21,039 bases of DNA from positions 1-21,039 of the IMG/VR virus record IMGVR_UViG_3300028195_000028, one strand, 5' to 3'. The position numbers were made by a program, and so were the translations under genes. The DNA comes from a virus. The notes beneath the pieces are model-generated. The model was not told the DNA's origin and did no database searches. It was given only the letters and a program-made list of their open reading frames with translations. Each line of letters starts with the position of its first letter. Within the stretch, counting starts at the first letter, position 1. This document shows, piece after piece, positions 228 through 20,572 of the stretch.

Positions 228-1392
228 AAAATGGGTTCAGAAACTGAATCCATCACAACCGCAAATAGCGGCTGCTCAAGGGCAGCAAGGGCCTTTGGCA
301 CCTTCATTGCCCTATGAAAGAGCGTATGAAAGATTAGAAGTAGTTAATCGCGGTGTTAATATGGTTGTTGATGCAGCATCACAAATTAATATAGATGTAG
401 GGGACAAAGAAGCATTTCCTGGAGTAGCAACTATTAGACATAAAAAGCTAGTAACTCTACTTAACAGGAACCCTAACCCATATCAATCAGCAGATGCTTT
501 CAGGAGAAACATCTTCTTAGATATGATTATGGATGGTAATGCTTTTATGTATTATGATGGTGCAAGTTTATACCATCTACCTGCCGAGAACGTTACTATT
601 ACTCCAGATAAGAAAACATTTATCAAAGGGTATGATTATAACGGAACTAAATACAAACCTGATGAGATTATACATATTCAAGATAACTCATCAGATTCAA
701 TATATCGAGGTAAGTCAAGATTAAGCTCAGCTAAACGCTCAATCAACTTGTTATACGATATGAAAGACTTCCAGATGAACTTCTTCAAAAATGGAGCAGT
801 TCCTGGCTTAGTACTAAAGACACCAAATACTCTTAGTGCTAAAGTAAAAGACAGACTAATTAATTCTTGGGCACAGAAGTACAACCCTAAGAGCGGAGGC
901 AGAAGGCCTTTGGTTTTAGACGGGGGTATAGAGATAGACAATATCTCTAATGTGGATTTCAAGAAGTTAGACTTTGAGGATTCAGTAACTAATTTAGAGA
1001 GTACTATTTTAAAAGTTATTGGAATCCCACCAATTTTAATGGATGGTGGTAATAATGCAAACATTAGACCCAACCAGAAATTAATGTATCAAGAGACCGT
1101 TCTACCTTTAGTTAGAAAACTGATTAGTGGTTTAGAGCGATATTTTGGTTATGACCTTGCAGCAGCACTAGAAGACCTCTCGCCCTTACAGGCAGAGTTA
1201 GACGAAAAAGCAAGATACTACAGCACTTTAGTTAACGGCGGAGTACTTACTCCAAATGAAGCTAGAGACGCATTAAGATTAGAGAAGATAGAAGGTCATG
1301 ATGACATACGCATCCCGGCAAATATTGCGGGAAGCGCAAGCAACCCTTCTGAGGGCGGAAGACCTCAGGGAAACGAGGAAAATGATGAATAA
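214..1392 (+). CDS. Portal protein, HK97 family
   Basis: This 392-residue protein is the likely dodecameric portal, the vertex channel through which terminase packages DNA and onto which connector proteins dock. Its length matches the HK97-type family (about 400 residues). Family-typical features are the N-terminal MGLFKKW, the middle stretch around LNRNPNPYQSADAFRRNI (residues about 90-108), FKNGAVPGLVL (about 190-200), and the C-terminal block VIGIPPILMDGG with NIRPNQKLMYQETVLPL (about 268-300). The tail region LVNGGVLTPNEARDALRL (about 340-358) is also characteristic. The start overlaps the upstream HNH frame and has only a weak purine-rich ribosome site (AGAAGAG), so coupling is likely. 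The end overlaps the capsid fusion gene by 11 bases. No truncation or insertion is evident. Confidence 0.93.
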   Translation: MGLFKKWVQKLNPSQPQIAAAQGQQGPLAPSLPYERAYERLEVVNRGVNMVVDAASQINIDVGDKEAFPGVATIRHKKLVTLLNRNPNPYQSADAFRRNIFLDMIMDGNAFMYYDGASLYHLPAENVTITPDKKTFIKGYDYNGTKYKPDEIIHIQDNSSDSIYRGKSRLSSAKRSINLLYDMKDFQMNFFKNGAVPGLVLKTPNTLSAKVKDRLINSWAQKYNPKSGGRRPLVLDGGIEIDNISNVDFKKLDFEDSVTNLESTILKVIGIPPILMDGGNNANIRPNQKLMYQETVLPLVRKLISGLERYFGYDLAAALEDLSPLQAELDEKARYYSTLVNGGVLTPNEARDALRLEKIEGHDDIRIPANIAGSASNPSEGGRPQGNEENDE

Positions 1393-3280: not shown

Positions 3281-3305
3281 TACTGACTTAACTAATAGTT
3301 GAAAT

Positions 3306-3338
3306 AAAACTGGTTAGGGTAATGCCTAGCCGGTTTTT
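3306..3338 (+). terminator. Intrinsic terminator after the capsid gene
   Basis: ACTGGTTAGG (3309-3318) pairs over 10 positions, with two G-T wobbles, with CCTAGCCGGT (3325-3334). The loop is GTAATG and a T5 run follows (3334-3338). The preceding AAAA (3306-3309) can extend the stem with the T run and may make it weakly bidirectional. It lies 26 bases after the capsid stop and before the connector gene, so it probably reduces transcription from capsid into the neck genes. Confidence 0.85.
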
Positions 3339-3360
3339 ATAAGTGAATTAAGGAATTGAA

Positions 3361-4380
3361 ATGGCAGATTTATACACAGTTAGTGAGTACAAAGCATATG
3401 CTGGTATTAATAGCACTACTCGCGACTCAGAAATAAATCTATTAAGAAGCCAAATTAGTGCACTTATAAAAACCTACTGTGGGCGTAGTTTCATAGATAA
3501 CTACAGCACAGCAAAGACAGAATACTTCGACACTACCGGTGGCGATACTTCTGTTTTCCCAACTGAACTACCTATCGTAGAAGTAGTACAGTTATTTGAG
3601 CGTAAAAACTCAAAGACAGATAAAACAACTGTCGAAAACAACCACGCAGATAGTAATAATTACTATCTCTTAGAATCAGGTACTGCACAATGTACTATTT
3701 CTTCTAATACTACTGAATCGACTTGTATTAATAATGACACTTTCACAGGGTCAGGCTTAAATGATCTAACAATCACTGGATACAACGCAAATACGTCGTC
3801 AGGTGAGATTGGACGTAGCTATAAAGTACAAATTGATGGTACAGGAACTCCAGACACGTTTAAATGGTCTCGTGATGGAGGGAATAATTGGAAAGAAACG
3901 ACTGTAGCAATAACAGGTTCTAGTCAAACTTTAGAGGGCGACATAGCTGTAACTTTTGCAGCCACTACTGGACATACGAGCGGAAATGCATGGGCATTTA
4001 CGTCTGAGAGATGGACCGGTGAATGTAGTGATACATCTTATACAACACAAGCAACTTGCGAGTCAGCAGCAGAATTTTGGACTGCAGACAGACAATATGA
4101 AATAGATGCTGAAGGACAAGAAATTACTAGAAATATTATTAGTTTCCCTAAAGGCCCTAAATCTGTAAAACTTGTGTATAAAGGTGGGTTCTCCTCTACT
4201 CCAGCAGAATTGAAGCTAGCTTGCTACGATTTGACTACTTACTATTTAAAGAAAGAATCAACTCCAGCAAAGTCTATGCCAGGCTCGGATATTAAAAATA
4301 TCTCACGCAGCCAGTCGCTTCACTCTGAATTCCCCCCACACATAAAACGTATCTTGGAGCATTATAGGCATATTAGCTAA
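3361..4380 (+). CDS. Head-tail connector (gp6-like) with a large internal insertion
   Basis: The start has AAGGA six bases upstream. The N-terminal part (MADLYTVSEYKAYAG, then LLRSQISALIKTYCGRSF, residues about 1-45) and the C-terminal part (FPKGPKSVKLVYKGGFS, AELKLACYDLTTYYLKKE, residues about 260-298) are those of the HK97 gp6-type connector ring that binds the portal. Such proteins usually have about 100-200 residues; this one has 339. The excess is residues about 105-245, which carries C111-x10-C122, a beta-rich module with TGTPDTFKWSRDGG and TFAATTGHTSGNAW, and then C222-x10-C233-x6-W240. The insertion falls between YYLLE and RQYEIDAEGQEI, a plausible surface loop. The stop TAA shares its last base with the ATG of the next gene. 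Confidence 0.75.
   Translation: MADLYTVSEYKAYAGINSTTRDSEINLLRSQISALIKTYCGRSFIDNYSTAKTEYFDTTGGDTSVFPTELPIVEVVQLFERKNSKTDKTTVENNHADSNNYYLLESGTAQCTISSNTTESTCINNDTFTGSGLNDLTITGYNANTSSGEIGRSYKVQIDGTGTPDTFKWSRDGGNNWKETTVAITGSSQTLEGDIAVTFAATTGHTSGNAWAFTSERWTGECSDTSYTTQATCESAAEFWTADRQYEIDAEGQEITRNIISFPKGPKSVKLVYKGGFSSTPAELKLACYDLTTYYLKKESTPAKSMPGSDIKNISRSQSLHSEFPPHIKRILEHYRHIS
3691..3726 (+). repeat. Cys-motif copy 1 in connector (C-x10-C)
   Basis: It encodes C111 and C122 of the connector with TTEST just before the second Cys, matching the C-x10-C and TTxxTC pattern of copy 2. There is no Trp after it; F128 lies in roughly that place. It opens the connector insertion. Confidence 0.5.
4024..4080 (+). 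repeat. Cys-motif copy 2 in connector (C-x10-C-x6-W)
   Basis: It encodes C222, C233 and W240 with TTQAT before the second Cys. Its spacing is identical to the first gpJ copy (18998-19054). At base level, 4042-4058 matches 19949-19965 (second gpJ copy) at 15 of 17 positions. It closes the connector insertion. Confidence 0.65.
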
Positions 4381-5645
4381 TGAGCGCAGACGCACTATCC
4401 AACTTTCTTAAACGTAATATTGTAAAAATATTCGAAAACGACCTTAGAGATTCTTTAGAAGGAGTAACCCACCGTCTAACCTTGAATAGGGCTGAATTAT
4501 CTACACTACTAAGGGGCAAGTTATCCCTTACAAAGGATGAAGCCGATGAAGCAATTACAGAGATTGAGGGTTCCCTACTGAAACACAGATTCATAGAAAA
4601 CGAGTCTAGTAATGAGGGAGGGAGTGTGTGGGTGGCTTCTTCAAAGAAAACCAAATTAAACCCTAGACCCGTAGCTAACCCTTATAAATCCTTCTACAAT
4701 TGGAAGAAGAACTTATACAAAAATACACTAAAGGACCTAAGTTCCGGTAGTAAATTAAAAGATTTTGGAGAGAATTTACACTTAGGGCATGGAGCAGCAG
4801 GCGGCGTTGCAGTAGTTACACACCGTAGTATGAAAGCAACGAAGAAACTAATGAGTAAAGGGGCAAAAAAAGCTGGTGTAAACGCGGAAGCAATGATTAC
4901 AGAAATGGAGGCTATCTCTTTAGAGGTAGATCGTATCTTAGGTAAAATAGACTTAAAATTAAAAGCTGATGATGCCTTTACAGCTAGAAGTGCCTTAAAG
5001 AAGACGTACACACTAAATATAGAGCTACAGTGGGGGAAGTCTAACTTATCAGAAGGTCAAAAAGAAAAGCAAATAAAAAATGCTATAGCATCTTTTGTAC
5101 AGACTGTAATTGACAACCCAGGGGCTTATCTAGAGGTGGGGGGATCTCCTTCTATGCTCAATTGGGTGGATAAGGCGTTGGACACTGCTATAATTGGCAA
5201 GAAAAAGATCAAAGACCAAGTTAAAACTACTAAAGCATCTCATTCTATAAAATCCAAAATTAAGAAAGGGAAGAAGCCTCTACCTACCACTCTACCTAGA
5301 ATCAGGGACACCAGGGGTAGGTTCACTTCACCCGCAGCGATACAAAACATAATCCAATCTCAGATAACTGAAAAAGTTAAAGAGAATATGGGGGAAGGCG
5401 GTTCACTAGTAAATAGAACAGGACGATTTGCAGAATCGGTTACTATTACAAATGTTACGCAAACTAGACAAGGGTCATTGACTGCTTTTTATAATTATAT
5501 GAAGTATCCTTATCAGACTTTTGAAAGAGGATTCAAACAAGGGTCAACACGAAGAGACCCTAGATTATTAATTCATAAGTCTATTAGAGAAATAGCACAA
5601 AAATTAGTTCATCGTAAACTAAATATTAAATCAAGGAGAGTATAA
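4380..5645 (+). CDS. Neck/head-completion-like structural protein of uncertain function
   Basis: The protein has 421 residues and starts on the last base of the previous stop (TAATG). It is basic and has no signal peptide or membrane segment. The N-terminal 300 residues are not recognised; they include a short LHLGHGAAGG (about 132-141) followed by helical Lys-rich sequence, and a Lys-rich stretch near 275-300. The C-terminal domain (about 310-421) has NRTGRFAESV (from R346) and later SIREIAQKL; a conserved TGR-x2-xSV element is typical of HK97 gp10-like neck or tail-completion proteins. Its place between connector and tail-terminator-like genes is where lambda Z or HK97 gp10 sit. I infer a neck protein with a long N-terminal extension; this could be wrong. 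Confidence 0.45.
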   Translation: MSADALSNFLKRNIVKIFENDLRDSLEGVTHRLTLNRAELSTLLRGKLSLTKDEADEAITEIEGSLLKHRFIENESSNEGGSVWVASSKKTKLNPRPVANPYKSFYNWKKNLYKNTLKDLSSGSKLKDFGENLHLGHGAAGGVAVVTHRSMKATKKLMSKGAKKAGVNAEAMITEMEAISLEVDRILGKIDLKLKADDAFTARSALKKTYTLNIELQWGKSNLSEGQKEKQIKNAIASFVQTVIDNPGAYLEVGGSPSMLNWVDKALDTAIIGKKKIKDQVKTTKASHSIKSKIKKGKKPLPTTLPRIRDTRGRFTSPAAIQNIIQSQITEKVKENMGEGGSLVNRTGRFAESVTITNVTQTRQGSLTAFYNYMKYPYQTFERGFKQGSTRRDPRLLIHKSIREIAQKLVHRKLNIKSRRV

Positions 5646-6079
5646 TGGCAGGTAAAGCACGTTCAGCAATAGTGAATGCACTTATTACTAAGTTAAAACT
5701 TATTGACGGCTCTGGCTCTTTTAATATTGATTTAGCTAATAATGTTACTAATAAACTGATTTTTTGGGACGAAGTAAATGACTTTCCATATGTTTCAGTA
5801 GTAGCAGGAAACGAAGTACGAGAATACTTACCCGGCGGGTTTAAGTGGGGTATGCTAGGATTAAACATACGAATGTATGTGTATGGTGAAGAGCCTTTAG
5901 ATGAACTTGAAAAAGTTCTATATGATATTGAAACCCAGATTGATGCTAATAATGTATTAACATACGATACTGGTAAACAGACTGAGCAGATGACGATATT
6001 AAGTATCGCAACTGACGAAGGATTACTTGCTCCATATGGAGTGGGTGAGATTACCTTAGAAGTAAGGTATCAAATATAG
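5645..6079 (+). CDS. Tail terminator / tail completion protein-like
   Basis: This 144-residue protein starts at ATG 5645, overlapping the previous TAA by one base, with a strong AAGGAG just upstream. Compact alpha/beta proteins with a DFPYVSVVAGNEVREYLPGG block (residues about 47-66) and an acidic helix LDELEKVLYDIETQID (about 86-101) are found at this position in many siphophages. They are thought to cap the tail tube, as lambda gpU does, and to join it to the head. Its size matches gpU-type proteins (about 130-150 residues), and the slot directly before the tail tube gene matches the lambda Z-U-V order. A head-closure role cannot be excluded from sequence alone. Confidence 0.6.
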   Translation: MAGKARSAIVNALITKLKLIDGSGSFNIDLANNVTNKLIFWDEVNDFPYVSVVAGNEVREYLPGGFKWGMLGLNIRMYVYGEEPLDELEKVLYDIETQIDANNVLTYDTGKQTEQMTILSIATDEGLLAPYGVGEITLEVRYQI

Positions 6080-6148
6080 TCTACAACGGTAAATAGACAA
6101 TAGTCGAATAACCCGTTAATGACAAGTTAAAAATACAGGAGAGCTAAA

Positions 6149-7279
6149 ATGGCTTTATCTTTAAGCAGAAATGCAACGTTCTATGCGTCATACGTGGCAG
6201 CAGGAACATCAACTTGGGTAGGTAATGGTACTAACCCATCAGATTCGGATACTTTCGAGATTCCAATTCTAGACGGATTTTCATTCTCACAGGCAACTGG
6301 TACACAGAATGTAACTCTAAACGAAGCAGGTGCAACACCTAAACGTGGTCAAAAGATCTTCAATACATCTTTAGAGCCCGTTGATTGGAGTTTTACTACT
6401 TACATGCGTCCTTTTACAGACAGCGCAGATTCAGATAAGCACTCAGCAACTGAGAAGTTACTTTGGAACGCTTTAGTATCTAATACACAAACTAATAATA
6501 CCTCTACAGGTGGTATCGCTTGTGACACAACAGATATGACTATTGATTTTGAAGACTCAGAGCATAACCAGCTACTTAAGTTTACTGGTTGGTTCGCTTT
6601 TTCTGATTCATCATTAACGTACGAATTGGCTAATATGTGTATTACATCAGCTTCAATTGACTTTGATATTGATGGTATCGCTCAGATCACTTGGACAGGA
6701 TTTGCTACTTCAGTTACACAGGTAGACGCAGATTACCCAGACGAGTCAGGACATCTTACAGACGGGTACGTACCTGCAAATACAGATGCAGACTTCATCC
6801 TTAACAGACTTAGTACTGTTACTTTGACTTCTACAATCTCTGGTAGTTCAAAAGTTTACACATTCCCTCTAACAGGTGGAAATGTTACTATTGATAATGG
6901 CTTATCGTTCGTAACTGCAGAAGAACTAGGCAAGATTAATACACCAATTGATCACCAAGTTGGAACTCGCGCTATCTCTGGCAACTTTACTTGTTACTTA
7001 GATTCAGCAGCACTAAGTTCAAAGGTTATGTATGATGATATCTTAGCAGATATCAATGGTGCAGCACCTGACGTAACAAACGTTTTTGACATTGATCTTA
7101 AAATCGGTGGCGCAAGCGCTCCATTTGTACAATTCGATATTCCTAGAGCTCACTTAGAGCTTCCGTCTATTGATACTGCAGATGTTATGGGTGTTACAGT
7201 TAACTTCACAGCACTAGAAAGTGACTTTGCTGGAGAAGACGAAATGACAGTTAATTATAAAGGACTAACTAGTACTTAA
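6149..7279 (+). CDS. Major tail tube protein
   Basis: The product has 376 residues and is acidic, Ser/Thr-rich and predicted beta-rich, with no hydrophobic segment. A strong AGGAG lies upstream after a 69-base gap, the second largest gap in the window, and an intrinsic terminator follows, both fitting an abundant protein. It precedes the frameshifting chaperone gene, the fixed position of lambda gpV. Two parts are apparent: an N-terminal tube-like domain (about 1-205), and a second beta-rich half (about 205-376) containing SFVTAEELGKINTPIDHQVGTR. Such double-domain tube proteins occur in other siphophages. Arginine is mainly CGT or CGC, like the capsid part. The subunits should stack around the tape measure protein to form the tail tube. 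Confidence 0.8.
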   Translation: MALSLSRNATFYASYVAAGTSTWVGNGTNPSDSDTFEIPILDGFSFSQATGTQNVTLNEAGATPKRGQKIFNTSLEPVDWSFTTYMRPFTDSADSDKHSATEKLLWNALVSNTQTNNTSTGGIACDTTDMTIDFEDSEHNQLLKFTGWFAFSDSSLTYELANMCITSASIDFDIDGIAQITWTGFATSVTQVDADYPDESGHLTDGYVPANTDADFILNRLSTVTLTSTISGSSKVYTFPLTGGNVTIDNGLSFVTAEELGKINTPIDHQVGTRAISGNFTCYLDSAALSSKVMYDDILADINGAAPDVTNVFDIDLKIGGASAPFVQFDIPRAHLELPSIDTADVMGVTVNFTALESDFAGEDEMTVNYKGLTST

Positions 7280-7293
7280 TATTTAATGTCTTT

Positions 7294-7322
7294 AGTAGGG
7301 TGCTTAGGTGCCCTACTTTTTT
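7294..7322 (+). terminator. Intrinsic terminator after the tail tube gene
   Basis: AGTAGGGTGC (7294-7303) pairs with GTGCCCTACT (7308-7317) through a TTAG loop; the outer seven pairs are Watson-Crick and the inner ones include wobbles. A T6 run follows (7317-7322). It lies 14 bases after the tube stop and just before the chaperone ribosome site. Confidence 0.85.
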
Positions 7323-7347
7323 ATTTATAAAACACAGGATATACAAA

Positions 7348-7794
7348 ATGACAACAGCAACAACAACAGCAACACCAAGTATTCAGAGTTTATCTGACTT
7401 ACTTACTTCAAGTAAAACAGCGACAGTCGAATTCCCGGGTTACCCAGGTTTCGAAGTACAACTTACTTATTTAGCACGCGACGAGATGCTAAAGCTACGT
7501 AAAAAGGCAGTTACTACGAAAATTAATCGTAGAACTAGACAGCCAGAAGAAGAGCTTAATGAGGAAATTTTCCTTAAAGAGTACATTAAGGCAGTAATCA
7601 AGGGCTGGAAAGGCTTAAAGATGACTTACTTAGTTCAGCTTATCCCGGTAGATGAGGACAAAATTGCAGATATGGAAGCAACTTTACCTTTCAACCACGA
7701 TAATGCAGAAATTTTAATGCAGAACTCTGGTGACTTCGACTCATGGTTGACAGAGGTTGTAGGTGACCTTGCAAATTTTACGAAGAGCAACTAG
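7348..7794 (+). CDS. Tail assembly chaperone, gpG-like (unshifted product)
   Basis: I chose ATG 7348 because it has AGGA eight bases upstream; the in-frame ATG at 7300 lies inside the terminator hairpin and has no ribosome site. The product has 148 residues: a Thr/Ala-rich N-terminus, then a domain with TVEFPGYPGFEVQLTYLARDEMLKL (in part residues about 26-50) and an acidic C-terminal region. Size, position between tube and tape measure genes, and the frameshift near its end identify it as the lambda gpG counterpart. Many copies coat the tape measure protein and help tube polymerisation, and they are absent from the virion. It stops at TAG 7792-7794, 13 bases after the slippery heptamer. Confidence 0.85.
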   Translation: MTTATTTATPSIQSLSDLLTSSKTATVEFPGYPGFEVQLTYLARDEMLKLRKKAVTTKINRRTRQPEEELNEEIFLKEYIKAVIKGWKGLKMTYLVQLIPVDEDKIADMEATLPFNHDNAEILMQNSGDFDSWLTEVVGDLANFTKSN

Positions 7795-8177
7795 ACTATT
7801 GGACAAAACAGATAGATAATCATTTCACAGGCGTTGGAGAGAATTTCGATAAACAAAAACGCATTGATATGATGATCCAAATGGAAGAGAACGGTATGGA
7901 GGTAGATTGGTCTACCTTAGATGAGGATGAAGTAGTTTTTCCTTATGAAATACAGGAAGCCTTTCAAGTTTGGAACTATTTGACAGACCAATGGGATGGT
8001 ATGAGTGGTACCTATTTCGGCAAGCAAATGGCCGGGATAAAAGATGTTATGGAGTTACTTGAAGTAAGTAACCAAAAAGAAATATTCAAGCTGGTAAAGA
8101 TTATTGACGGGAAGTACGCAAAACACGTTAATAAGAAGCAGAAGCAACAACAGCAGACGGGGCCTACTAAGGCTTAG
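7348..8177 (+). CDS. Tail assembly chaperone, gpG-T-like -1 frameshift fusion
   Basis: The -1 frame is open from the slippery site to TAG 8175-8177. Slippage after AAT TTT (N-F) continues with TAC at 7779 and gives YEEQLDYWTKQIDNHF and onward, for a fusion of 276 residues (144 before, 132 after). The extension ends in a basic Lys/Gln-rich tail. The stretch from 7779 to the first ATG at 7869 has no stop and no ribosome site before that ATG, so independent initiation is unlikely. In lambda, the T domain binds the tail tube protein while the G part sits on the tape measure. The TMP gene follows after 14 bases. Confidence 0.87.
7761..7779 (+). promoter_or_regulatory. Programmed -1 ribosomal frameshift site
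   Basis: The heptamer AAATTTT (7773-7779) reads A AAT TTT in the zero frame, a canonical X XXY YYZ slippery sequence; re-pairing gives AAA TTT in the -1 frame. AGGTGA at 7761-7766 lies seven bases upstream and resembles a Shine-Dalgarno sequence, a known type of stimulator. I saw no strong stem-loop immediately downstream. The site lies 13 bases before the gpG stop, as in tail chaperone genes generally. Confidence 0.88.
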
Positions 8178-8191
8178 CGGAAGAGAATAAA

Positions 8192-11100
8192 ATGGCAGGA
8201 AAGTACGATAAGAATATTAAGATTACAGTTGATGACAATGGCTCTTTAAAACAAAAGACCAAAGACGTCAATAAGCTTAATAAAGCAGTCGACAAAAATA
8301 ATAAGAAATCTGGCAACCTTGATAGAAATATGAAGGGTAATGCCAAGATGTCTGCTAACGCCTCTAAAAACTTCTCTAAACAAGCTCAAGGAATGCAAGG
8401 CGTGCTGGTTCCTGCCTACGCAGAAGTCGCAGCACGTGTATTTGCGCTAACTGCTGCTTATACCGCTCTACAGAGAGCTTCTCAGTTCGGAATACTACTA
8501 AAAGGACAGCAAGAGTACGCCGCTCAAACTGGTAAGAACATGGCACAGATCGCTAGAACTATTCAGAAAGCTTCTGGATATATGCTAGACTTTCAGGAAG
8601 CGTCTACCAGCACGGCGTTGGCGACTACAGCAGGTTTAACTGCTAAACAGATCGAAAGAATGACTAAAGGTGCTCGTGCAGCCTCGGTTGCTCTTGGTAG
8701 AAATATGGGCGATGCGATGGATCGTTTGACTCGTGGTATTGTAAAGGCCGAGCCTGAAATTCTAGACGAGCTAGGTGTAATTATTAGACTTGATAAAGTA
8801 TATAAAGATTTTGCTCATTCTATAAATAAGACTACTACAGAGCTTACTGAGATGGAGAAGCTAACCGCACGTAATGCCGCCATAATGGGACAGTTAGAGG
8901 GCAAATTCGGGGACATCGCTACTAGCATACCTGCGGATGCTTTCGCGAAATTAAGCGCTAGTTTCACTGATATACTACTAAACGTAGGTTCTGGAGCTAC
9001 TACTTTTCTAACCCCTTTCATAGATAAACTTGCGGAAGCAGAGAACCTGTTGAAAGGTATAATGCTGTTAGTAGCTAGAAGCTTGTTATCTAAAGTATTC
9101 CCTGTCTTTAAGGACATGGGCGCTAAGCTAGACAGCTACTCAAAAACCCTATTAAAAGCAGGACAAACTTTAGAAAAGGTTAAGAGAAATTTCTTACTAT
9201 CTTCCGGGGTAAGTTCGGTAATGCTAAAAGGGCAGGAGACTGCCGGCAAGAAGCTGTTCTCCCTTTTAGGGGAATGGGGTGGTAAAGCTCTCGGTAAAGC
9301 AATGGCTAATAAAGGTAATATGTCTGCGGCAGAGCTATTAGGCAAGCATATGGGTACCAGTGCGGGTAAAGGGCTAATGTCATCCCTTTCACATGCAAAG
9401 AGGGATTTACAGAGACAAAAAGATCTAGGAGTTAAGGACCCTACAGTGGAGACTCCGGCGTTTAAGGGAGCTACCCAGGCTCAAATTGACCTAATAGATA
9501 AGGCAGTAAATAGTTTTAAATTGTTCGGAAAAGAGATTCAAAATATTTCAAAAGCTTCTAGAGGATCTTTCGTACTTAAACTGGTAGAAGGCTTACATAG
9601 TGTAGGAGGCGCAGCCCTAAATGCAACTAAATATGTGGCAAATGCAGGTGCTTCCTTTATGCAAGGCGCTAGAAGTGCTTCCATATTAAAGGCTCAAGGT
9701 TTTAGCTTAGGGGCGATGTTCAAACTGCTAGTATTTAATACTAACAATACCGCTAAAGGTATGGATAAGTTTAAGACTGAGTTAACTAAGTCATCTAGAG
9801 TAGCATCCGCGTTCACTTTAACACTACAGGCAATGAGTACTGCTTTGAATTTTGCGGTATCTATTCTAAGTATCAAAATGATGGTACAGTGGATAGGAAG
9901 AGAAATACTAGATTGGAATCAGGCCGCTACTAATGCACACAAGGCCGTAGACGACCTGACAGATACCCTTACTGAATCTATGGCCGCTATGAAAAAGCAG
10001 GTAAGCACACGGGGTAATATAGGGGACTCTATTGCGGATTCTCTTAGGTCCTCAGAGACAAAGAATAATATGGCCAGTGGTCTATCTGAGGCTATGAATG
10101 AGGCTGTTGAAATGATGTCCTCAGAGGCACTTGCCGCAGATAAGTGGGGAACCCTTTTAGACGACTTCATGGACTCAGTAGGTATAGGTCTAGCAGATAA
10201 GCTGGAGGAGTCTATTGGAAAGGCTTTAACCAATTTATCCTTCACTATGTCCCCCGACGAGTGGCTGAAGTTCAAAGAAGATACAAGTCTTAGAGACAAA
10301 CTAGTAGGCTCTATAGACCCTAACGCAGGCGCTTCAGAGAAGCTAATGGTAGGTACAGCATCTACTCTTGTAGGAGCGGGGGCACTCGCCACAGGGGTAC
10401 TATCCATAAGCACAGCCTGGGGAGCAGCCATCGCTGCTGCAACAGGTTTCTTTGGGGTAGCAGCAGCAGGGCTATCGGCACTTATATGGCCTGTAACTTT
10501 AATTGTAGGAGGGTTAGGGGCACTTTATTATGGTTTTACCAATCTTAAGGAAGGAGTGTATAAACTTACTAAGACTTCTGAAGAAGCTGCCGATGCAGTA
10601 ATATCTGTACTAGACGGAGTAAACGCGGGTACATTAACTCCAGAATTAGCAGTACGAAAGCTAGGCGATGAGCTAGATATGTCCAAAGAGAAGGCACTGT
10701 CTTACTATAGCGACTTAACAGCCGCTGCAAAACTACACGCGGAAGTAACTAAGTCTCAGACAGACGCTATAAAGAACTTAACTGATTCTATGGGTAACTT
10801 AGTAAAAATACGTGACAGCTTCCTAAAAGGCATGATTAAGGGAGGAGACCTTAGGGACTTCGCGAAGTCTGCAAAAGGGTCTATAGCTTCGGTCTCGGAT
10901 AAGCTAGTTACAGATACTGTTAAGTTTAGAGAACTGAATGATAAGAATATGTTTGGAGCAAACTACTCAAAACTTCCTGAGGACGCACAGACCATTCTTA
11001 AACACTGGGATACTCAATTAAAAGTAGCCCAAAAAGGTTTAATAGCTATTCAAAATAGGATATATTCAGACGAGGAGCAGAAGACTAAAGATAAAAATGC

Positions 11101-14100: not shown

Positions 14101-15403
14101 GTATGAGCTAGATACAAGAGTTCGTGCGGGGGAGAGAAAATGGAAGAATAATAAGAGAGGCAAATGGCTACAAGATGCCCAGGACGGGCAGTCTAAGGCT
14201 AAAGGCACAGACAGTAAAGGACAAGGAGAGTTATTTAGGTTAATACCTGCCCTAGAGGGCCTAACCAAGACTTTAGATACTAAAGTGATACAGTCCATGA
14301 ACGGGTCTATAGCTCTAGGCAACGTATTCGATCCTAAGAACGGGAAAAATGCTAGGAGTATGTTGGTGCAGCTTATACTACAGATACTTCCTACTCTTTT
14401 CCCCTCGAAGGAAGCTACTAGCGAGTATACTACGGATCCTACAGAGATGCTAATGAATGGGGGATCCTCTTTCAAGAAGAGAGCCATTTCAGACACGAAT
14501 AGGCCTCTAGGGAATTACGGTCCTACGGCATCAGAGCTAGACGAGGGCAATGTTTTAGAGATGTTCTGGAATATAGGCTTAAGAATTGGAGAGAAAATTA
14601 ACGAGGCTCTAGGTATTAAGGACCGCACAAATTCTATAGACCAAATGAAAGCACCGCAAAAATTTGAGTATACCAACCCTTATAGCGTAGATGCCGATAG
14701 TAACATAGGGCAGAAACTGGAAAGCATTGTTCTAAGTACCCCAACATTAGAGTTACAGAACGCAGCACTAACTGCAGCGATTAATGCTTCAAATGGAAGA
14801 GGCGGGTCTACTAAGGTGGAGGTTGTAAACCCTCTGGACATTAAGACCCCTACGACAGTATCTCCAGGCCAGCCGGCCCCCGTTACTGATCCAAAAGGGG
14901 ATGCTACTACTAACCAACTGAGTACGGATTTAAGAAGATCAATGGCATCAAATCTTAATTCCCAGATACAAAATGATAACCTAAATGCCCGAGCATTTAT
15001 TACTAATTCCTTATCTCAGGTAGGTACAAATATGATGAGCGGTGCAATAAATAGTTTTTTTGGGTTCGCTAATGGTGGTGTAGCTAAGGGGGGTTTCAGA
15101 GCCTTTGCAAACGGCGGAACTGTTACTAAACCTACTCTTGGTTTGGTTGGTGAAGGTAAGTACAACGAAGCGGTAGTGCCGCTACCAGATGGTAAGTCTA
15201 TCCCAGTAATGGGGTCTGCGGGCTCTACTGAAAATAACGTTACAGTTAATGTTACAGTTGATAAGGATGGGAACGCGGAATCTGATACTAATAGTGGTAT
15301 GGACGGGGATAAAGCTAAAGCTCTTGGGTACATGGTATCTCAAGCAGTACAGCAAGAGTTAGTTGAACAACAGAGACCGGGAGGGCTACTAAGTAGTTAT
15401 TAA
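8192..15403 (+). CDS. Tape measure protein with embedded HExxH metallopeptidase-like domain
   Basis: This 2403-residue protein starts at ATG 8192 after GGAAGAG. It should set tail length and leave the tail ahead of the DNA at infection. The N-terminus (1-70) is charged and Lys/Asn-rich, followed by VLVPAYAEVAARVFALTAAY (71-90) and helical sequence typical of TMPs. Hydrophobic stretches lie at about 540-575 and 726-782; the latter is Ala/Gly-rich and long enough for two or three membrane-crossing helices. Extended helical or coiled-coil sequence fills much of the middle (about 930-1330). Residues about 1645-1865 look like a folded domain with HELAH at 1760-1764 and EE at 1823-1824, a gluzincin-like zinc site. 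The C-terminus has FANGG repeats and GLVGEGKYNEAVVPLPDG, common in TMPs. Arginine is mostly AGA/AGG. The protein may be processed by cleavage. Confidence 0.92.
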   Translation: MAGKYDKNIKITVDDNGSLKQKTKDVNKLNKAVDKNNKKSGNLDRNMKGNAKMSANASKNFSKQAQGMQGVLVPAYAEVAARVFALTAAYTALQRASQFGILLKGQQEYAAQTGKNMAQIARTIQKASGYMLDFQEASTSTALATTAGLTAKQIERMTKGARAASVALGRNMGDAMDRLTRGIVKAEPEILDELGVIIRLDKVYKDFAHSINKTTTELTEMEKLTARNAAIMGQLEGKFGDIATSIPADAFAKLSASFTDILLNVGSGATTFLTPFIDKLAEAENLLKGIMLLVARSLLSKVFPVFKDMGAKLDSYSKTLLKAGQTLEKVKRNFLLSSGVSSVMLKGQETAGKKLFSLLGEWGGKALGKAMANKGNMSAAELLGKHMGTSAGKGLMSSLSHAKRDLQRQKDLGVKDPTVETPAFKGATQAQIDLIDKAVNSFKLFGKEIQNISKASRGSFVLKLVEGLHSVGGAALNATKYVANAGASFMQGARSASILKAQGFSLGAMFKLLVFNTNNTAKGMDKFKTELTKSSRVASAFTLTLQAMSTALNFAVSILSIKMMVQWIGREILDWNQAATNAHKAVDDLTDTLTESMAAMKKQVSTRGNIGDSIADSLRSSETKNNMASGLSEAMNEAVEMMSSEALAADKWGTLLDDFMDSVGIGLADKLEESIGKALTNLSFTMSPDEWLKFKEDTSLRDKLVGSIDPNAGASEKLMVGTASTLVGAGALATGVLSISTAWGAAIAAATGFFGVAAAGLSALIWPVTLIVGGLGALYYGFTNLKEGVYKLTKTSEEAADAVISVLDGVNAGTLTPELAVRKLGDELDMSKEKALSYYSDLTAAAKLHAEVTKSQTDAIKNLTDSMGNLVKIRDSFLKGMIKGGDLRDFAKSAKGSIASVSDKLVTDTVKFRELNDKNMFGANYSKLPEDAQTILKHWDTQLKVAQKGLIAIQNRIYSDEEQKTKDKNAAQRRINDITKMKGTAEAYEYSVVWRKTYAEVMKADSSLTETQAYNATARRMVHKLAGGDAEKQYNLELKLSSELEANKLKIVNLDKYGTSATEAKSKILVENLKKEKQIAEGRFAFRIASETLSAEEEKQLQQTIDNIDTKIKHASRTAGKLNKRFHEVAGTTQTISDILSAALVDNEFIVDADFEAHKVQVIDTAFNKLNNSLDETFQETQKVTYAMDLLRNKFGKDIFNTTSGMKLWKKWTSLFTQEGKLLKAKQKQIRDELYKIVLESDNIGIHTNLVSLKTDMLELEMNVLDKSNDNIKKQTQLAMMVLAFEKTKKELKELEATEQYAPVKLFFEESLAGMGQTISGVISDALMRKEPDDDLSTKDRIRLALAQTASDATGEMVSGFITKGTRSLLASATESIFGKDAANAIFPPSERDKLMKTLEDMRELISAQLNQLSNGVIQVVDISDPEARAKKAESLAYDSMFGNTGIVMNSSIFADKTERDWFEKHLSGFIKESTTAEGFVMSNFADLQKKINTALQGRVSTMDEYQKFLIKSKAGDIVNNKPTDKDSEGFSSWFKNLFSDTTKISVPVGGVNVGTDIKSIKKVFSSAVDAVEDFTSSTETAVQIIEKSTETVSVENKLKKLARPPMSEEDKLYWENRSKEFTDNSNKRVAAEKKAQDLLDAIPSKLEQAIDKLKIVAVTQKDISNGKYLPTLSASGYKVGGYSNDEDAQDMLDVNTEIMGKFSTGSYLEQNPDFFLKDLENLRIRLVQSFKDQQGNTLGGGLNQEEGLLIIRDFESLVHELAHSLFKGFKPEWNNYLTKSGEDYQNFWKEQNYLAASGDASVKNDIFDSFNKSVYTKDQNIEEIIVRTVDAMSKAQVGTTVQDVTPEYMWNSYTQDFKEMLRILANPTYKSDRALDTLPKALQDIVTSRNNADGYIKKNVEPWIKVPANIAQQINEQFERMISSGKASYKGETLWRSPLDGSFETSDLKKYGPNSPINANGKRTPQPEWYELDTRVRAGERKWKNNKRGKWLQDAQDGQSKAKGTDSKGQGELFRLIPALEGLTKTLDTKVIQSMNGSIALGNVFDPKNGKNARSMLVQLILQILPTLFPSKEATSEYTTDPTEMLMNGGSSFKKRAISDTNRPLGNYGPTASELDEGNVLEMFWNIGLRIGEKINEALGIKDRTNSIDQMKAPQKFEYTNPYSVDADSNIGQKLESIVLSTPTLELQNAALTAAINASNGRGGSTKVEVVNPLDIKTPTTVSPGQPAPVTDPKGDATTNQLSTDLRRSMASNLNSQIQNDNLNARAFITNSLSQVGTNMMSGAINSFFGFANGGVAKGGFRAFANGGTVTKPTLGLVGEGKYNEAVVPLPDGKSIPVMGSAGSTENNVTVNVTVDKDGNAESDTNSGMDGDKAKALGYMVSQAVQQELVEQQRPGGLLSSY

Positions 15404-15405
15404 TT

Positions 15406-15948
15406 ATGGCAAATTTTAACACAGAAGTAAATATTAACCCAGATAGAGGCCTTAAGGCAGACAGCAAGCCTAGGGTTCTAGCTGCAACGTACGGAGATGG
15501 GTACGAACAGAGAGTAGCCGCGGGTATTAATAATACCCCCGAAGTTTGGAACTTAACGTGGAAGAACCGTACCTCCGCCGAGGCCAACAAGATCATCAAA
15601 TTCTTAGAGGATCAAGGTGGCGTAACTGCATTTGATTGGTACCCTACGGGGTATGACATATCTAGCACGGCTACCAGCGCTGCCACTAAAAAGTTGATAG
15701 ATACTAGTCAGTATTTTACTGCTAGATACCTAAATACTACGGTCACGGATTCCGGGGGCACCACTACCACAGTTACAGCTATAGACAGTGCTACTCAGTT
15801 ATCTCTAGCGGCGGACATAATTTCTAGTGCGGAGGCCTACACTCTTTACCCTTATAAAAAGTATAAGTGTGAAAAGTGGAGTACTCAACATAATATATCA
15901 GGTCACCAAACTATTACAGCAACCTTTACAAAGGTATTTGAACCATGA
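15406..15948 (+). CDS. Minor tail protein, lambda gpM-like, with inserted beta module
   Basis: ATG 15406 lies two bases after the TMP stop with no clear ribosome site, so coupling is likely. Residues 23-80 carry the gpM family blocks YGDGYEQR, AAGIN and FLEDQGG...FDWYP, and 152-180 carry KYKCEKWSTQHN with a final beta strand. Lambda gpM has about 109 residues; this protein has 180. The excess is residues about 82-148, between FDWYP and the CEKWS block: a Thr/Ser/Ala-rich beta module with KKLIDTSQYF, TTVTAIDSATQLSLAADI and EAYTLYP. In lambda, gpM helps complete the tail tip beneath the tube. The stop overlaps the next start as ATGA. Confidence 0.8.
   Translation: MANFNTEVNINPDRGLKADSKPRVLAATYGDGYEQRVAAGINNTPEVWNLTWKNRTSAEANKIIKFLEDQGGVTAFDWYPTGYDISSTATSAATKKLIDTSQYFTARYLNTTVTDSGGTTTTVTAIDSATQLSLAADIISSAEAYTLYPYKKYKCEKWSTQHNISGHQTITATFTKVFEP
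15649..15849 (+). other. Inserted beta-module coding segment within gpM-like gene
   Basis: It encodes residues about 82-148 of the gpM-like protein, absent from lambda gpM. It is Thr/Ser/Ala-rich with alternating hydrophobics, contains TQLSLAADI, and has no Cys. The boundaries are estimated from where similarity to gpM stops and resumes. Confidence 0.55.
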
Positions 15949-16817
15949 GCGATAAAATTACTAGTGATATTCATGGCTTTGAGCCTGGGGCCGTTATTGA
16001 GTTATTTGAACTTGACCTGACTACAGGTAGTGCCCCTTCCTCTGAGCCTACTCTTAGGTGGCACTCAGGTCAGAACGAAAATCTTCAAGAAATAGTATGG
16101 CAAGGTAATAAATATTCTGCCTTTCCTATTGAGGCAGAAGGTTTTGAATTTTCAGGAAAGGGAGCAATCCCTAGACCTACAGTCACGGTAGCTAATATTA
16201 CCTCTATATTATCTAGTGTTATTAATAGTTATGATGATTTGATAGGGTCAAAAGTTACTAGAAAGAAGACCTTTGCGAAGTATCTAGACAATTACTGTTA
16301 TACTAGCGGGTACCCTGTCGCAGGAGTGTGCACAGGGGAGTCTGGAGGAGACCCTAGTTTAAGTAAGTCAGATTGTTTAGATGTTAATAAGAATGGTTCC
16401 GTAGGTACTTGGACAGCGTATAACCAAACTACTTGCGAAGCTGCAACGGGGCCAGGCATATGGTATGCATCAGCCTTGGCCGATGATACTGCACACTTCT
16501 CTGATGAGATTTGGTACATAGATAGGAAGGCCGTTGAGACTCGTACTCATATTCAGTTTGAGCTAACTGCAGCACATGACATACACGGAGTAAAGCTGCC
16601 CTCTAGGACTGTAGTTGCTAACTCTTGCCCTTGGTTATACAAAGGCACAGAGTGTGGATACTCTGGGGCTAATTACTGGGATGTTAATAACAATACAGTA
16701 GTAACCTCCTCAGACGATGTTTGTGCTAAAACTTTCAATGCTTGTGAACTTAGATTTCCGGAGTCAGTTGAGAGCCCTTTTGGGGGGTTCCCTGGAGCTG
16801 GTATTAATATGGGATAA
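15945..16817 (+). CDS. Minor tail protein, lambda gpL-like, with Fe-S cysteine set and an inserted Cys motif
   Basis: This 290-residue protein starts in an ATGA overlap with gpM. The N-terminal domain (about 1-115) has the gpL-type LRWHSGQNEN and WQGNKYSAFPIEAEGFEFSG. The C-terminal domain has SCPWLYKGTECGYSG and DVCAKTFNACELRF; its four cysteines C228, C237, C260 and C267 have the spacing C-x8-C-x22-C-x6-C. As I recall it, that equals the lambda gpL Fe-S ligand spacing (C173, C182, C205, C212). So a [4Fe-4S] cluster at the tail tip is likely. Residues about 118-180 are extra relative to lambda and hold C129-x14-C144-x11-W156 and C164-x8-W173. The next gene starts four bases after the stop. 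Confidence 0.85.
   Translation: MSDKITSDIHGFEPGAVIELFELDLTTGSAPSSEPTLRWHSGQNENLQEIVWQGNKYSAFPIEAEGFEFSGKGAIPRPTVTVANITSILSSVINSYDDLIGSKVTRKKTFAKYLDNYCYTSGYPVAGVCTGESGGDPSLSKSDCLDVNKNGSVGTWTAYNQTTCEAATGPGIWYASALADDTAHFSDEIWYIDRKAVETRTHIQFELTAAHDIHGVKLPSRTVVANSCPWLYKGTECGYSGANYWDVNNNTVVTSSDDVCAKTFNACELRFPESVESPFGGFPGAGINMG
16329..16463 (+). repeat. Cys-motif copy 3 in gpL-like gene (C-x14-C and C-x8-W)
   Basis: It encodes C129, C144, W156, C164 and W173. The C-x14-C spacing and the C-x8-W spacing are the two halves of the second gpJ copy (C-x14-C-x8-W), as though the motif were partly duplicated. ACTTGCGA here (from 16431) is also present in the connector copy. Confidence 0.55.
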
Positions 16818-16821
16818 CCCA

Positions 16822-17535
16822 ATGAATGAAAAGACTTTAGAAGATTTTAGAAAGCACACGGAAGACTCTTACCCTAAAGAAGCCTGCGGCTTCATTATTG
16901 GGGTAGGAAAGAAAGAGAGGTACTTCCCTGCTAATAATATTGCAGAGTTTGCTGAGGAGCACTTTATAATAGACCCAGTAAGTTACGCAGATGCAGAGGA
17001 TATAGGGGCAATTATAGGGGTATGTCACTCACACCCTAATGAGGGGTGTGAACCCTCTGAAGCGGATAAGGTTGCTTGCGAAACCTCTAATAAACCTTGG
17101 CATATTTTAAGCTGGCCAGGGGACAGATTACATAGCTGGGAGCCCTCGGGGTACGAAGCCCCTATAGTAGGTAGACAGTTCAGCTATGGAGTACTAGACT
17201 GTTGTACATTACTTAGAGATTACTACAAAAAAGAATTAAATATAGATTTTAAGTGTCATAGTGGTCAAGACGGGTGGTGGGATAAAGGCGAGAATAGATA
17301 CTTAGATAACTATAAAGAACAAGGTTTTGTACAGATAAAAGATGAAGATGATATACGAAAATATGATATATTTCTTATAAAATTAGTTTCACCTGTACCA
17401 AACCACGCGGCAGTTTTCATCGGAGACGATAAAATTTTACATCACGTACACGGTAGACTATCTAATAGGGAGCTTTATGGCGGATATTGGAGAAAGCATA
17501 CCACGCATCATTTAAGGCACCAATCACTATGTTAA
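16822..17535 (+). CDS. Tail assembly protein, lambda gpK-like (JAMM + NlpC/P60)
   Basis: I chose ATG 16822, four bases after the gpL stop; the upstream in-frame ATG at 16717 would overlap gpL by about 100 bases. The product has 237 residues and two enzymatic domains. Residues 1-110 are a JAB/MPN domain with E20 and H69-S-H71-P, S79 and D82 (JAMM pattern HxH-x7-S-x2-D), a putative zinc isopeptidase-type site. Residues about 118-237 are NlpC/P60: YGVLDCCTLLRDYY with nucleophile C127, and H195 in NHAAVFIGD as the catalytic His. In lambda-like phages gpK is a tip protein thought to process peptidoglycan or tip components. Both active sites look intact. Confidence 0.88.
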   Translation: MNEKTLEDFRKHTEDSYPKEACGFIIGVGKKERYFPANNIAEFAEEHFIIDPVSYADAEDIGAIIGVCHSHPNEGCEPSEADKVACETSNKPWHILSWPGDRLHSWEPSGYEAPIVGRQFSYGVLDCCTLLRDYYKKELNIDFKCHSGQDGWWDKGENRYLDNYKEQGFVQIKDEDDIRKYDIFLIKLVSPVPNHAAVFIGDDKILHHVHGRLSNRELYGGYWRKHTTHHLRHQSLC

Positions 17536-18170
17536 AGAAAGTAAAATTATATGGGGAACTAGCGGAGAAGTATGGTAAAGAGTGGGAACTTGATATTGAG
17601 TCCCCTTCTGAAGCTATAAGAGCCTTAATGGCAAACAACCCCAGCTTCCGACAGTTTGTTAGTACTTCGGAAGAGAGAGGGGTCGGGTATAAAGTAATAG
17701 TTGGAAACAACGAATTAGTGAATATTACAGGAGAACTTTCAAATCCTACAGGTAGACAGGATATTAAAATTGTACCTGTTATTGGAGGAGCAAAACGAGG
17801 GGTTGGCCAAATTATTGTAGGCGCTTTGATGATTTATATCGCTATTCAGACGGGAGTAGTTTTAGCGGACCCCGGTAGTGTTGCAGTATTAGCGGGGGAA
17901 GGGTCCGGGGTTATTATGGGTACAGCACTGTCTTCTACAGGCATGATGGCAGTTAAGTTTGGAGGAGCTTTAATATTAGGAGGCATAGCAGCTATGTTAG
18001 CTCCTACCCCTCCTCCTCTTTCAGATGCGGCTAAAGCAGAGAATTACTCTTTTAATGGAGCCGATAATACGACAAGGCAGGGAGGGGCTATACCCGTATG
18101 TTATGGGCAGCTTATGGTAGGCGGAGCAGTTATTAGCTCAGGAGTTTCACCGGAGGATTACACACCATGA
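17529..18170 (+). CDS. Tail assembly protein, lambda gpI-like
   Basis: I chose ATG 17529, overlapping the gpK stop by seven bases; the in-frame ATG at 17487 lies well inside gpK. The product has 213 residues. The N-terminal 85 residues (MLKKVKLYGELAEKYG, EAIRALMANNPSFR) resemble the beta-grasp domain of the gpI family. Two hydrophobic Gly/Ala-rich segments follow, at about 93-111 (VGQIIVGALMIYIAIQTG) and about 133-158, then a Pro-rich APTPPPLSDA and a C-terminal tail with GGAIPVCYGQLMVGGAVIS. This architecture is characteristic of gpI, which acts with K and J at tail-tip assembly. Its stop overlaps the gpJ start as ATGA. Confidence 0.85.
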   Translation: MLKKVKLYGELAEKYGKEWELDIESPSEAIRALMANNPSFRQFVSTSEERGVGYKVIVGNNELVNITGELSNPTGRQDIKIVPVIGGAKRGVGQIIVGALMIYIAIQTGVVLADPGSVAVLAGEGSGVIMGTALSSTGMMAVKFGGALILGGIAAMLAPTPPPLSDAAKAENYSFNGADNTTRQGGAIPVCYGQLMVGGAVISSGVSPEDYTP

Positions 18171-20572
18171 GTGAGAAAGATTGGATAAGAGGCTCGGGAG
18201 GCGGAGGCAAAGGCGGAGGTGGAGGAAGTGCTACAGAGGATGACGATTCCTTATTTTCTGCATCAAAAGCACGCGTAGTTGATTTAGTTTCCGAAGGAGA
18301 AATTGTAGGACTACTAGCAGCTGAAAAGTCTATATACCTAAACGAGACACCTTTAAAGGACTCAGCAGGAAACTATAACTTTGACGATGTTACGTATGCT
18401 ACTAGGGAAGGTACTAATATTCAGACATATATCCCCGGTTTCTCTGGTACAGAACAGGAAGTCCCGGTAGGCGTCATTGTAAAGAAAGCAGCCCCGGGTG
18501 CTCTCATTAGATCTTTTAGCTCGACTACTGTAGATGCAGTGCGCGTACTATTGTATACCCCCGCACTACTCGATGGGGATAACGATAGAGGAGACCTACA
18601 TGGTTCAAGTGTTGCCTTCAAAATATACTTAGAAAAGGACAATAATGGTTCTTGGGTAGAGATGAAGTCCTCTTCTTTTGAAGGTAAGACTTCGTCTAAG
18701 TACGAAAGAGCCTTCAGGTTAGATATACCTTCTGCTTGGAAGACTTCGGGGTTTACACAAATTGCTATTAAGGTAGAAAGAACTACAGCAGACTCTACCT
18801 CTACTAAATTAAGTAATGAGTTATACTTTGGTGCATACACAAAAATTATAGACAATAAATTAAGGTACCCTAATAGTGCCCTAATGGCTCTACAGATAGA
18901 TGCTAGACAGTTTACTAGTATTCCTAAACGTGGATATGAAATAAAGGGTGTAAAAGTAAAAGTCCCTAGTAACTATACTCCATACGACCCCGGGCATTGT
19001 TCTCTATCCGGGTATAGGCGTAAGGACAGGTGTACCCAAGCAGGAGGTACCTGGACAGGTACCGCTGCAGGAGGGACTCTATACTCAGGTTCGTGGGATG
19101 GCACATTCGACACAGAGTGGACCTGTAACCCTGCGTGGGTTATGTATGACCTATGTACGGATGAGAGGTACGGGCTGGGTAAGTGGCTAGCAGCTAACCA
19201 ATTAGACAAGTGGTCCCTTTATGAGATTGCTAAGTACTGTGACGCAGTGGACAATTCTGGCAACTTTGTTGGGGTTGACGACGGCTGGGGTAATAAAGAG
19301 GCTAGATTTGCATGTAATATGTACTTACAGAGCAGGGCCGAAGCGTATAAAGTACTAAATGATATTTCCTCCATATTTAGAGGAATGATATACTGGCAAC
19401 AGGGGCAAATCTCTGCTGTGCAGGACGCGCCCAAAGACCCCGTGATGAGCTTTTCAGATGCCAACGTTATAGAAGGTAAGTTTACATACGAAGGTACTTC
19501 CAGAAAACAGCGACACAATGTAGCACACGTTACTTGGAACAACCCAGAAGACTTTTATAGGCAGAACGTTGAGTACGTTGAAGATGCACAAGGAATTGTA
19601 AATGCTAATAACCAGATATTTTCGACAGATGTAAGTGCGATAGGCTGTACATCTCAAGGGCAGGCACGTAGAGTAGGAAAGTGGATTCTGTATACGGAAA
19701 GGTATGAAACTGAAACAGTGACTTTCTCCACGGGTATGGAAGGTGCTGCAATTAGACCTGGAGATATTATTAAAATAGCGGACTCGCACAAAGCAGGGGT
19801 ACGTTATGGGGGCAGAATAGCCTCAGGTAGTACAACTACTACTATTAAATTAGATGCAGCTACTTCAGTAACCGCGGGTAAAACATACAAACTATCTTTA
19901 ATTAATACTGAAGAAGCGTGTATACAGTCTGGAGTTAAACAAGGTGAGACAACTCAAGAAACTTGTTTAAACGCCCACGTAGATAATGAGTGGAAACCTT
20001 ATGTATGGGTAGAGACAAAAGACGTAGTTACTATTGGTACTACTGAAAGCATTACAGAGATAACGGTAACCTCCGCATTTGCTAATACTCCTACTACTAA
20101 TTATATGTGGATTTTAGAAGAGATAGGTACAGTAGAGGCACAAGACTTTAGAGTATTAATGACTAGGGAGTCTGGCTCTAATATAGTGGAAGTGTCCGCA
20201 CTTAAGTACCACGAGGCCAAGTATGGGTATATTGAAGAAAATATAGCGTTCTCTTCTAAATCTACTAGTAGTTTACCTAACCCAAGTGACCCAATACCTG
20301 CACCTACTAATATGAGTATTAGTGAAGAATTGTATATTGATTCAATGGGGAATGTTAAGAACAGGGCCACCTTTAGCTGGGATGCTCCAAACACGGCCGG
20401 TACAGCAACTACTTACCCGTACATTGCGTCTTATTACGTAGAGTGGAGAAGAAAGGCTCCTGCTATTACAAACTGGACTTCAATGGGGGAGACCTCTGCG
20501 CAGAGCATCACTATTGATGATGCACCTGCAGGAACTTTAGAATTTAGAGTTAAAACAAGGAGAATTTTCTAA
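18167..20572 (+). CDS. Tail tip / host specificity protein, lambda gpJ-like, N-terminal portion
   Basis: The product has 801 residues. After a Gly-rich start (residues 10-20) come gpJ blocks: ARVVDLVSEGEIVGL, SIYLNETPL, SSKYERAFRLDIPSAW, LRYPNSALMALQIDARQF, VPSNYTP, YSGSWDGTF, MYDLCTDERYGLG, and GCTSQGQARRVGKWILYTE. The domain GDIIKIADSHKAGVRYGGRI (532-551) is the family's beta barrel. A fibronectin type III-like domain occupies about 711-795. Relative to lambda, inserts with paired Cys lie at about 273-305 (C278-x10-C289-x6-W296) and about 582-615 (C585-x14-C600-x8-W609). The protein ends abruptly after the FN3 strand LEFRVKTRRIF; lambda gpJ has 1132 residues. The following frame appears to continue it. 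The tip fibre normally contacts the host receptor. Confidence 0.88.
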   Translation: MSEKDWIRGSGGGGKGGGGGSATEDDDSLFSASKARVVDLVSEGEIVGLLAAEKSIYLNETPLKDSAGNYNFDDVTYATREGTNIQTYIPGFSGTEQEVPVGVIVKKAAPGALIRSFSSTTVDAVRVLLYTPALLDGDNDRGDLHGSSVAFKIYLEKDNNGSWVEMKSSSFEGKTSSKYERAFRLDIPSAWKTSGFTQIAIKVERTTADSTSTKLSNELYFGAYTKIIDNKLRYPNSALMALQIDARQFTSIPKRGYEIKGVKVKVPSNYTPYDPGHCSLSGYRRKDRCTQAGGTWTGTAAGGTLYSGSWDGTFDTEWTCNPAWVMYDLCTDERYGLGKWLAANQLDKWSLYEIAKYCDAVDNSGNFVGVDDGWGNKEARFACNMYLQSRAEAYKVLNDISSIFRGMIYWQQGQISAVQDAPKDPVMSFSDANVIEGKFTYEGTSRKQRHNVAHVTWNNPEDFYRQNVEYVEDAQGIVNANNQIFSTDVSAIGCTSQGQARRVGKWILYTERYETETVTFSTGMEGAAIRPGDIIKIADSHKAGVRYGGRIASGSTTTTIKLDAATSVTAGKTYKLSLINTEEACIQSGVKQGETTQETCLNAHVDNEWKPYVWVETKDVVTIGTTESITEITVTSAFANTPTTNYMWILEEIGTVEAQDFRVLMTRESGSNIVEVSALKYHEAKYGYIEENIAFSSKSTSSLPNPSDPIPAPTNMSISEELYIDSMGNVKNRATFSWDAPNTAGTATTYPYIASYYVEWRRKAPAITNWTSMGETSAQSITIDDAPAGTLEFRVKTRRIF
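18998..19054 (+). repeat. Cys-motif copy 4 in gpJ-like gene (C-x10-C-x6-W)
   Basis: It encodes C278, C289 and W296 with CTQAGGTWT, the same spacing as the connector copy at 4024-4080. It sits between the conserved gpJ blocks VPSNYTP and YSGSWDGTF, where lambda gpJ has only a short loop. Confidence 0.65.
19919..19993 (+). repeat. Cys-motif copy 5 in gpJ-like gene (C-x14-C-x8-W)
   Basis: It encodes C585, C600 and W609 with TTQETC. It replaces the short hairpin loop following KTYKLSL in the gpJ beta domain. Bases 19949-19965 match 15 of 17 with 4042-4058 in the connector. Confidence 0.6.

Follow-up and report, generated by a model that had tools for sequence, protein, structure and literature searches.

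A short Cys-Cys-Trp motif in phage connector and tail proteins, a probable portable unit as yet without a name

A Cys-Cys-Trp unit of ~19 residues was found in the connector, gpL and gpJ proteins of a single phage fragment. It appears to be a so far unnamed module that evolution has moved repeatedly into surface loops. Its copies form one sequence family, are present in unrelated proteins, behave as inserts and have been gained and lost recurrently. The canonical motif is [G]-C-S-x3-Y-T-[TDN]-x3-C-x3-G-G-x-W, giving a spacing of C-x10-C-x6-W. As a named family it was found in neither Pfam, PHROGs nor the open-access literature searched, though it does lie inside the models for gp8 and gp10 of T4-type phages.

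The window analysed was the whole 21,039-base virus record IMGVR_UViG_3300028195_000028, a linear fragment. It contains a lambda-like head-tail and tail-tip module with portal, connector, major tail protein and gpM/L/K/I/J, and a tape-measure-sized ORF also lies within this module. Judged by eye, the single ORF at 1298–3280 seems to fuse the prohead protease with the major capsid protein. The features of the three motif-bearing genes are given in Table 1.

Table 1. Motif copies and associated features of the window; bits are scores of the reduced profile described in the text.
Feature	Position	Strand	Evidence or remark
Head-tail connector (gp6-like adaptor) ORF, 339 aa	3361..4380	+	phrog_442 head-tail adaptor E 2.6e-22; Pfam HCP 2.6e-12
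Connector insert, residues ~78-240, left edge uncertain	3592..4080	+	alignment with shorter homologues
Half copy C111-x10-C122, CTISSNTTESTC, without Trp	3691..3726	+	7.7 bits
Beta-rich domain between both connector copies	3706..4008	+	tblastn, residues 116-216
Canonical copy C222-x10-C233-x6-W240, CSDTSYTTQATCESAAEFW	4024..4080	+	28.5 bits
Minor tail protein L (gpL) ORF, 290 aa	15945..16817	+	Pfam Phage_tail_L 6.5e-59
Cys-rich gpL insert, residues ~123-173	16311..16463	+	missing from lambda, SSU5 and S-H1 gpL
Split motif copy in gpL	16329-16463	+	inside Cys-rich insert; 7.3 bits
Conserved gpL Cys 228/237/260/267, separate from motif	16626..16745	+	gpL sequence comparison
gpJ-like tail tip protein ORF, 801 aa	18167..20572	+	phrog_31 E 3e-234
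gpJ insert relative to lambda, between SNYxP and YSGxWDG	18983..19075	+	alignment with lambda
Canonical copy C278-x10-C289-x6-W296, CSLSGYRRKDRCTQAGGTW	18998..19054	+	11.3 bits
Longer copy C585-x14-C600-x8-W609	19919..19993	+	tip of predicted beta-hairpin; 2.8 bits

The preliminary description had listed five motif segments, and all five were present in the window with translations as described. The window proteins were scored with a profile stripped beforehand of the copy from the window itself and of a near-identical connector-type copy, and the five best-scoring places were exactly these segments. When 3,500 proteins were shuffled at constant composition, 10 bits was never attained, while 4 scored at least 6 bits and 45 at least 2 bits. 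Judged against these shuffled scores, the full connector copy and the first gpJ copy are certainly not due to chance. A chance origin is unlikely for the connector half-copy and for the split copy in gpL, and for the second copy in gpJ the profile score taken by itself is not significant. The C-x10-C-x6-W core, with Y-T and G-G each at a constant place, is therefore above chance, strongly so for the connector and first gpJ copies; the split copy in gpL and the longer one in gpJ are divergent members.

Alignment of the connector with its relatives placed both copies inside an insertion, as had been proposed. The insert was carried by 15 connectors, including that of the window, and most of residues ~78-240 was missing from 17 others (34–42% identity). 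The right end of the insert is the motif tryptophan itself, and the two cysteines and tryptophan of the canonical copy were retained in 15 of 15 aligned insert-bearing connectors. The beta-rich domain between the two copies gave tblastn matches to tail and structural proteins of Cellulophaga, Maribacter and Roseobacter phages, suggesting that this domain may itself be portable. It contains the Asp-box-like sequence SRDGGNNW.

The gpJ model matched the lambda gpJ structures 8xcg and 8iyk (Foldseek). Lambda gpJ lacks both motif segments, which had been placed at positions where lambda has short loops: in lambda and SSU5 gpJ the sequence SNYN directly joins Y-G-WDG at the site of the first copy, and a short turn occupies the site of the second. 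The two cysteines and the tryptophan of both copies were invariant in 27 gpJ relatives, and for the second copy this invariance, together with a predicted secondary structure matching that of the first, provides the support. Both gpJ copies are fixed in the phage clade of the window and are therefore ancestral within it. Further copies have accumulated around them, with an extra tandem copy following the first in L048, L070 and L267, and more copies nested between the cysteines of the second in L048, L050, L071 and others.

The possibility that the segments are ancestral, fixed parts of each family thus held for the gpJ copies within the clade and, as far as fixation goes, for the connector copy among the insert-bearing connectors aligned, but not for gpL, where the sites are variable. 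The actively variable places of the motif are gpL and some of the extra gpJ sites. The Cys-rich gpL insert, for which lambda gpL has no counterpart, as previously described, spans two sites, S1 (near 16353) and S2 (near 16420–16463), at which relatives hold full copies. The S1 insert of L060 and L061 consists of exactly 19 codons from TGT to TGG, flanked by ESGA and DPS, while L267 and L268 carry a different copy at this site and L062–L068 a third, making three separate lineages. At a third site, S3, between Cys 237 and Cys 260, relatives hold an inserted beta-cassette, which in some includes the motif and in others lacks it. On the tree of the gpL core the Fitch method required 3 changes at S1, 4 at S2, 5 at S3 and 1 for a C-terminal array. 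The four conserved cysteines of this region are distinct from the motif and may have the Fe-S role known from lambda gpL.

Pairs of closely related gpL genes differed in the same manner. L033 and L020 differed in a sharply bounded segment, both flanks of which were mostly 73–93% identical when computed per 30-base DNA block, and L011 and L049 were mostly 90–100% identical up to a cassette of ~340 bases bearing the motif. That such close relatives differ by whole cassettes suggests that phages exchange these segments with one another. The segment between Cys 237 and Cys 260 was a swapped beta-repeat cassette of the GGSGY..APTV type, roughly 90–115 residues long, in L049, L052, L073, L047 and L279; the gpL DNA of L047 and L279 was mostly 90–100% identical outside this cassette and only ~50% within it, with the Cys/Trp motif in just one of the two. 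A separate beta-rich insert of ~80 residues (IIIKKTISGATQANPIVITT...) follows residue 31 in L069 and L071, forming a further variable site.

To examine the distribution of the motif, the pattern C-x4-Y-T-x4-C-x3-G-G-x-W was sought in the DNA of 2.9 million viral contigs. This gave 77 places, of which 75 were stop-free and inside ORFs, and three controls with the same letters at shifted spacing gave 0, 2 and 5 places, confirming the anticipated enrichment over random Cys/Trp spacing. Nearly all control places were attributable to chance; one (L312) was an apparent genuine one-residue variant, and the remainder were mostly interrupted by stops or in unconvincing frames. Clustering of unmasked sequences by BLAST joined nearly all ORFs, and the motif was masked for grouping. 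The 75 masked ORFs then formed 22 groups at a BLASTP threshold of 1e-8, or ~20 after one likely chance match was dropped and one split family merged, a count in which very distant relatives might fuse some groups. Hosts that could be identified included gpL, a tail fibre protein, a virion protein of phrog_2941, an amidase-like protein and a match to the crAss-type muzzle model; some of the carriers that could not be named adjoin tail genes. A tblastn search of phage records with a 20-residue consensus, a query too short to be sensitive, returned four matches, and the proteins of L179 and L205 had no relatives among phage records. The idea of a mini-domain moving among structural genes is borne out by these inserts, which occur in unrelated virion proteins of many phages and, in the connector, gpL, gpJ and T4-like gp10, at places where families that are otherwise conserved have indels.

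When the PDB was searched with a profile of 26 copies at an E-value limit of 10, just three sequences matched, each a wedge protein from a T4-type baseplate: T4 gp8, for which the match was weak (E 0.015), and the gp8-like protein and gp10 of a second T4-type phage. The T4 copies lie at residues 142–161 of gp8 (C142-C153-W, GMCSIASLTDKDECLKLGGKWTPS) and 331–350 of gp10 (C331-C342-W350, HCVGADSDDEVECSVLGGTWEQS). These segments (gp8 140–163 and gp10 domain 3, 328–352) have the same Cys-Cys-Trp order with G-G before the tryptophan, and differ from the canonical copy in a spacing of C-x10-C-x7-W instead of x6. They were the best matches in the PDB, Pfam and PHROGs, and the phrog_977, Pfam Phage-Gp8 and Gp10_D3 models recognise motif copies. 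The copy was present in gp8 of 7/7 T4-like phages examined, whereas gp10 had it in T4, 44RR, Acj9 and Matisse but not in Milchi or Vibrio phage K567; in these phages the motif is thus a fixed part of gp8 and a variable part of gp10, each within one protein. The connector, gpL and gpJ matched gp8 and gp10 in the motif only, and whole-protein homology was not found. No description of the gp8/gp10 segment as a separate portable unit was found in the literature searched, and a review of the T4 tail discusses no gp10 cysteine other than Cys555.

A slightly stricter pattern, run over bacterial and archaeal genomes totalling 257 billion bases, gave 16 stretches, compared with 47 matches to that pattern in the viral set. 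The bacterial carriers that could be named were mostly exported or surface types, namely TadE/G-like pilus proteins, PilY1 and multihaem cytochromes. The TadE/G-like carriers combine von Willebrand domains with tandem motif arrays, and in the vWA/TadG-like proteins of L241 and L248, of the Tad-pilus type, these arrays are of a 17-residue form of the motif. The balance of the evidence leans slightly towards a tiny unnamed domain common to phage virions, bacterial pili and other exported proteins, serving as a general-purpose disulphide-stapled hairpin cap that passes between unrelated genes and has gone unnoticed as such in two T4 baseplate proteins.

The connector and second gpJ copies had been noted to match at 15 of 17 bases, more than codon constraint would require. 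The match itself is correct; the excess is not, as identity holds for only 3 of the 5 codons that they share, and the probability of at least 3 from codon usage alone is 0.39. Nor, in a check that had been proposed, were copies within one genome closer to each other than copies from different genomes, the amino-acid identities being 0.425 and 0.460, respectively. This comparison comprises only 15 within-genome pairs and was restricted to the clade of the window because an earlier between-locus set was biased by the search pattern. Recent DNA-level duplication inside a genome was rejected on both results, since copies that differ as much within genomes as between them do not indicate internal copying. 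Judged from the sequence comparisons, the motif would most likely have spread by recombination between phages.

The absence of any excess of within-genome similarity also bears on two other explanations. Rickettsia palindromic elements are short in-frame inserts in unrelated genes, and a selfish coding DNA of this kind could produce the precise presence or absence of inserts and the reuse of the same sites. Such elements are palindromic repeats at the DNA level, whereas the Cys-Cys-Trp motif is conserved only as protein, with identical-codon rates of 0.40–0.48 between genomes, and occurs in a single reading frame, nearly always free of stops; the DNA-level conservation between copies of one genome that marks Rickettsia palindromic elements was not found, which makes selfish DNA an improbable source. 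The second explanation, that hairpin turns repeatedly and independently gained Cys-x10-Cys-x6-Trp as a good stabiliser, would account for within-genome copies being no closer than others and for the divergence of some copies. Convergence on this scale is nevertheless unlikely, as serine after the first cysteine, Y-T, T/D/N, Q/K and G-G-T-W co-occur across unrelated hosts, and complete copies sit as blocks with sharp edges amid closely related flanks. The motif is short, and for single copies convergence might retain a small share of the probability.

AlphaFold models of both gpJ copies placed the first cysteine at a strand, the second in a short helix and the tryptophan at the opening of the next strand, and in the connector copy the helix and tryptophan strand were visible. 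Confidence was 81–90 for the second gpJ copy and 64–73 for the first, which was above its surroundings, and was low for the connector motif; the gpJ fragment model was poor except at fragment residues 350–441. The unit is probably a disulphide-stapled portable micro-domain of ~19 residues that is exchanged as a cassette between virion proteins. The fixed Cys-Cys spacing, the extracytoplasmic carriers and the shared predicted layout suggest a disulphide-stabilised knob. The first cysteine would close a strand, and a short Y-T loop would cap the short helix bearing the second cysteine, from which the G-G turn would lead into the tryptophan at the start of the returning strand. With this layout the motif could replace a beta-hairpin turn with the host fold undisturbed. 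Phage proteins fold in a reducing cytoplasm, which counts against a stapled cap; the putative disulphide would form once the phage has left the cell or, in the bacterial carriers, in the periplasm.

A metal-stabilised knob, the other form proposed in the preliminary description and considered here with zinc or iron as the metal, is very improbable: the alignment of 26 copies has two invariant cysteines, and lambda gpL binds metal at another place in its sequence, but a third or fourth conserved ligand is absent from the alignment. Disulphides in phage tails are established in phage Milano, whose tail, including the baseplate wedges, contains many that link subunits (PMC10811340). The motif carriers are likewise tail and baseplate proteins, and the two cysteines could bond neighbouring subunits and lock the tail as in Milano. 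The bonds in Milano stabilise tail and baseplate between subunits, in one phage group and with no recurring sequence module (PMC10811340), whereas the cysteines of the motif are paired with a constant x10 gap, both across unrelated hosts and within tandem arrays, which fits a bond within the motif and leaves an inter-subunit cross-link unlikely.

Another parallel to the putative disulphide-stapled unit is provided by the Ig-like domains of phage structural proteins, which according to Fraser et al. 2006, as cited in PMC8718954, are portable over unrelated virion proteins and have been proposed to make weak surface contacts. These are whole beta-sandwich folds, while the motif is a Cys-paired segment of 19 residues in loops, and no Pfam match to Ig-like (Big) domains was found for the window connector, gpL, gpJ or the 26 copies. 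Known portable virion domains are whole folds of this type, and the motif would be a much smaller exchangeable part. Its benefit would most likely be that of a rigid, stable surface cap, presumably exposed, that stiffens loops or gives a weak contact surface. The motif offers a simple handle on virion surface remodelling and accounts for the Cys-rich insertions in these tail proteins.

Virion proteins would gain, lose and swap the motif as a cassette at insertion-tolerant loops, and the cassette may consist of the motif alone, in tandem or together with beta-domains. As a separate observation, L219 encodes a 1,204-residue protein (595–4206, + strand) containing a long series of degenerate copies, many of which end in G-T-C rather than G-T-W.
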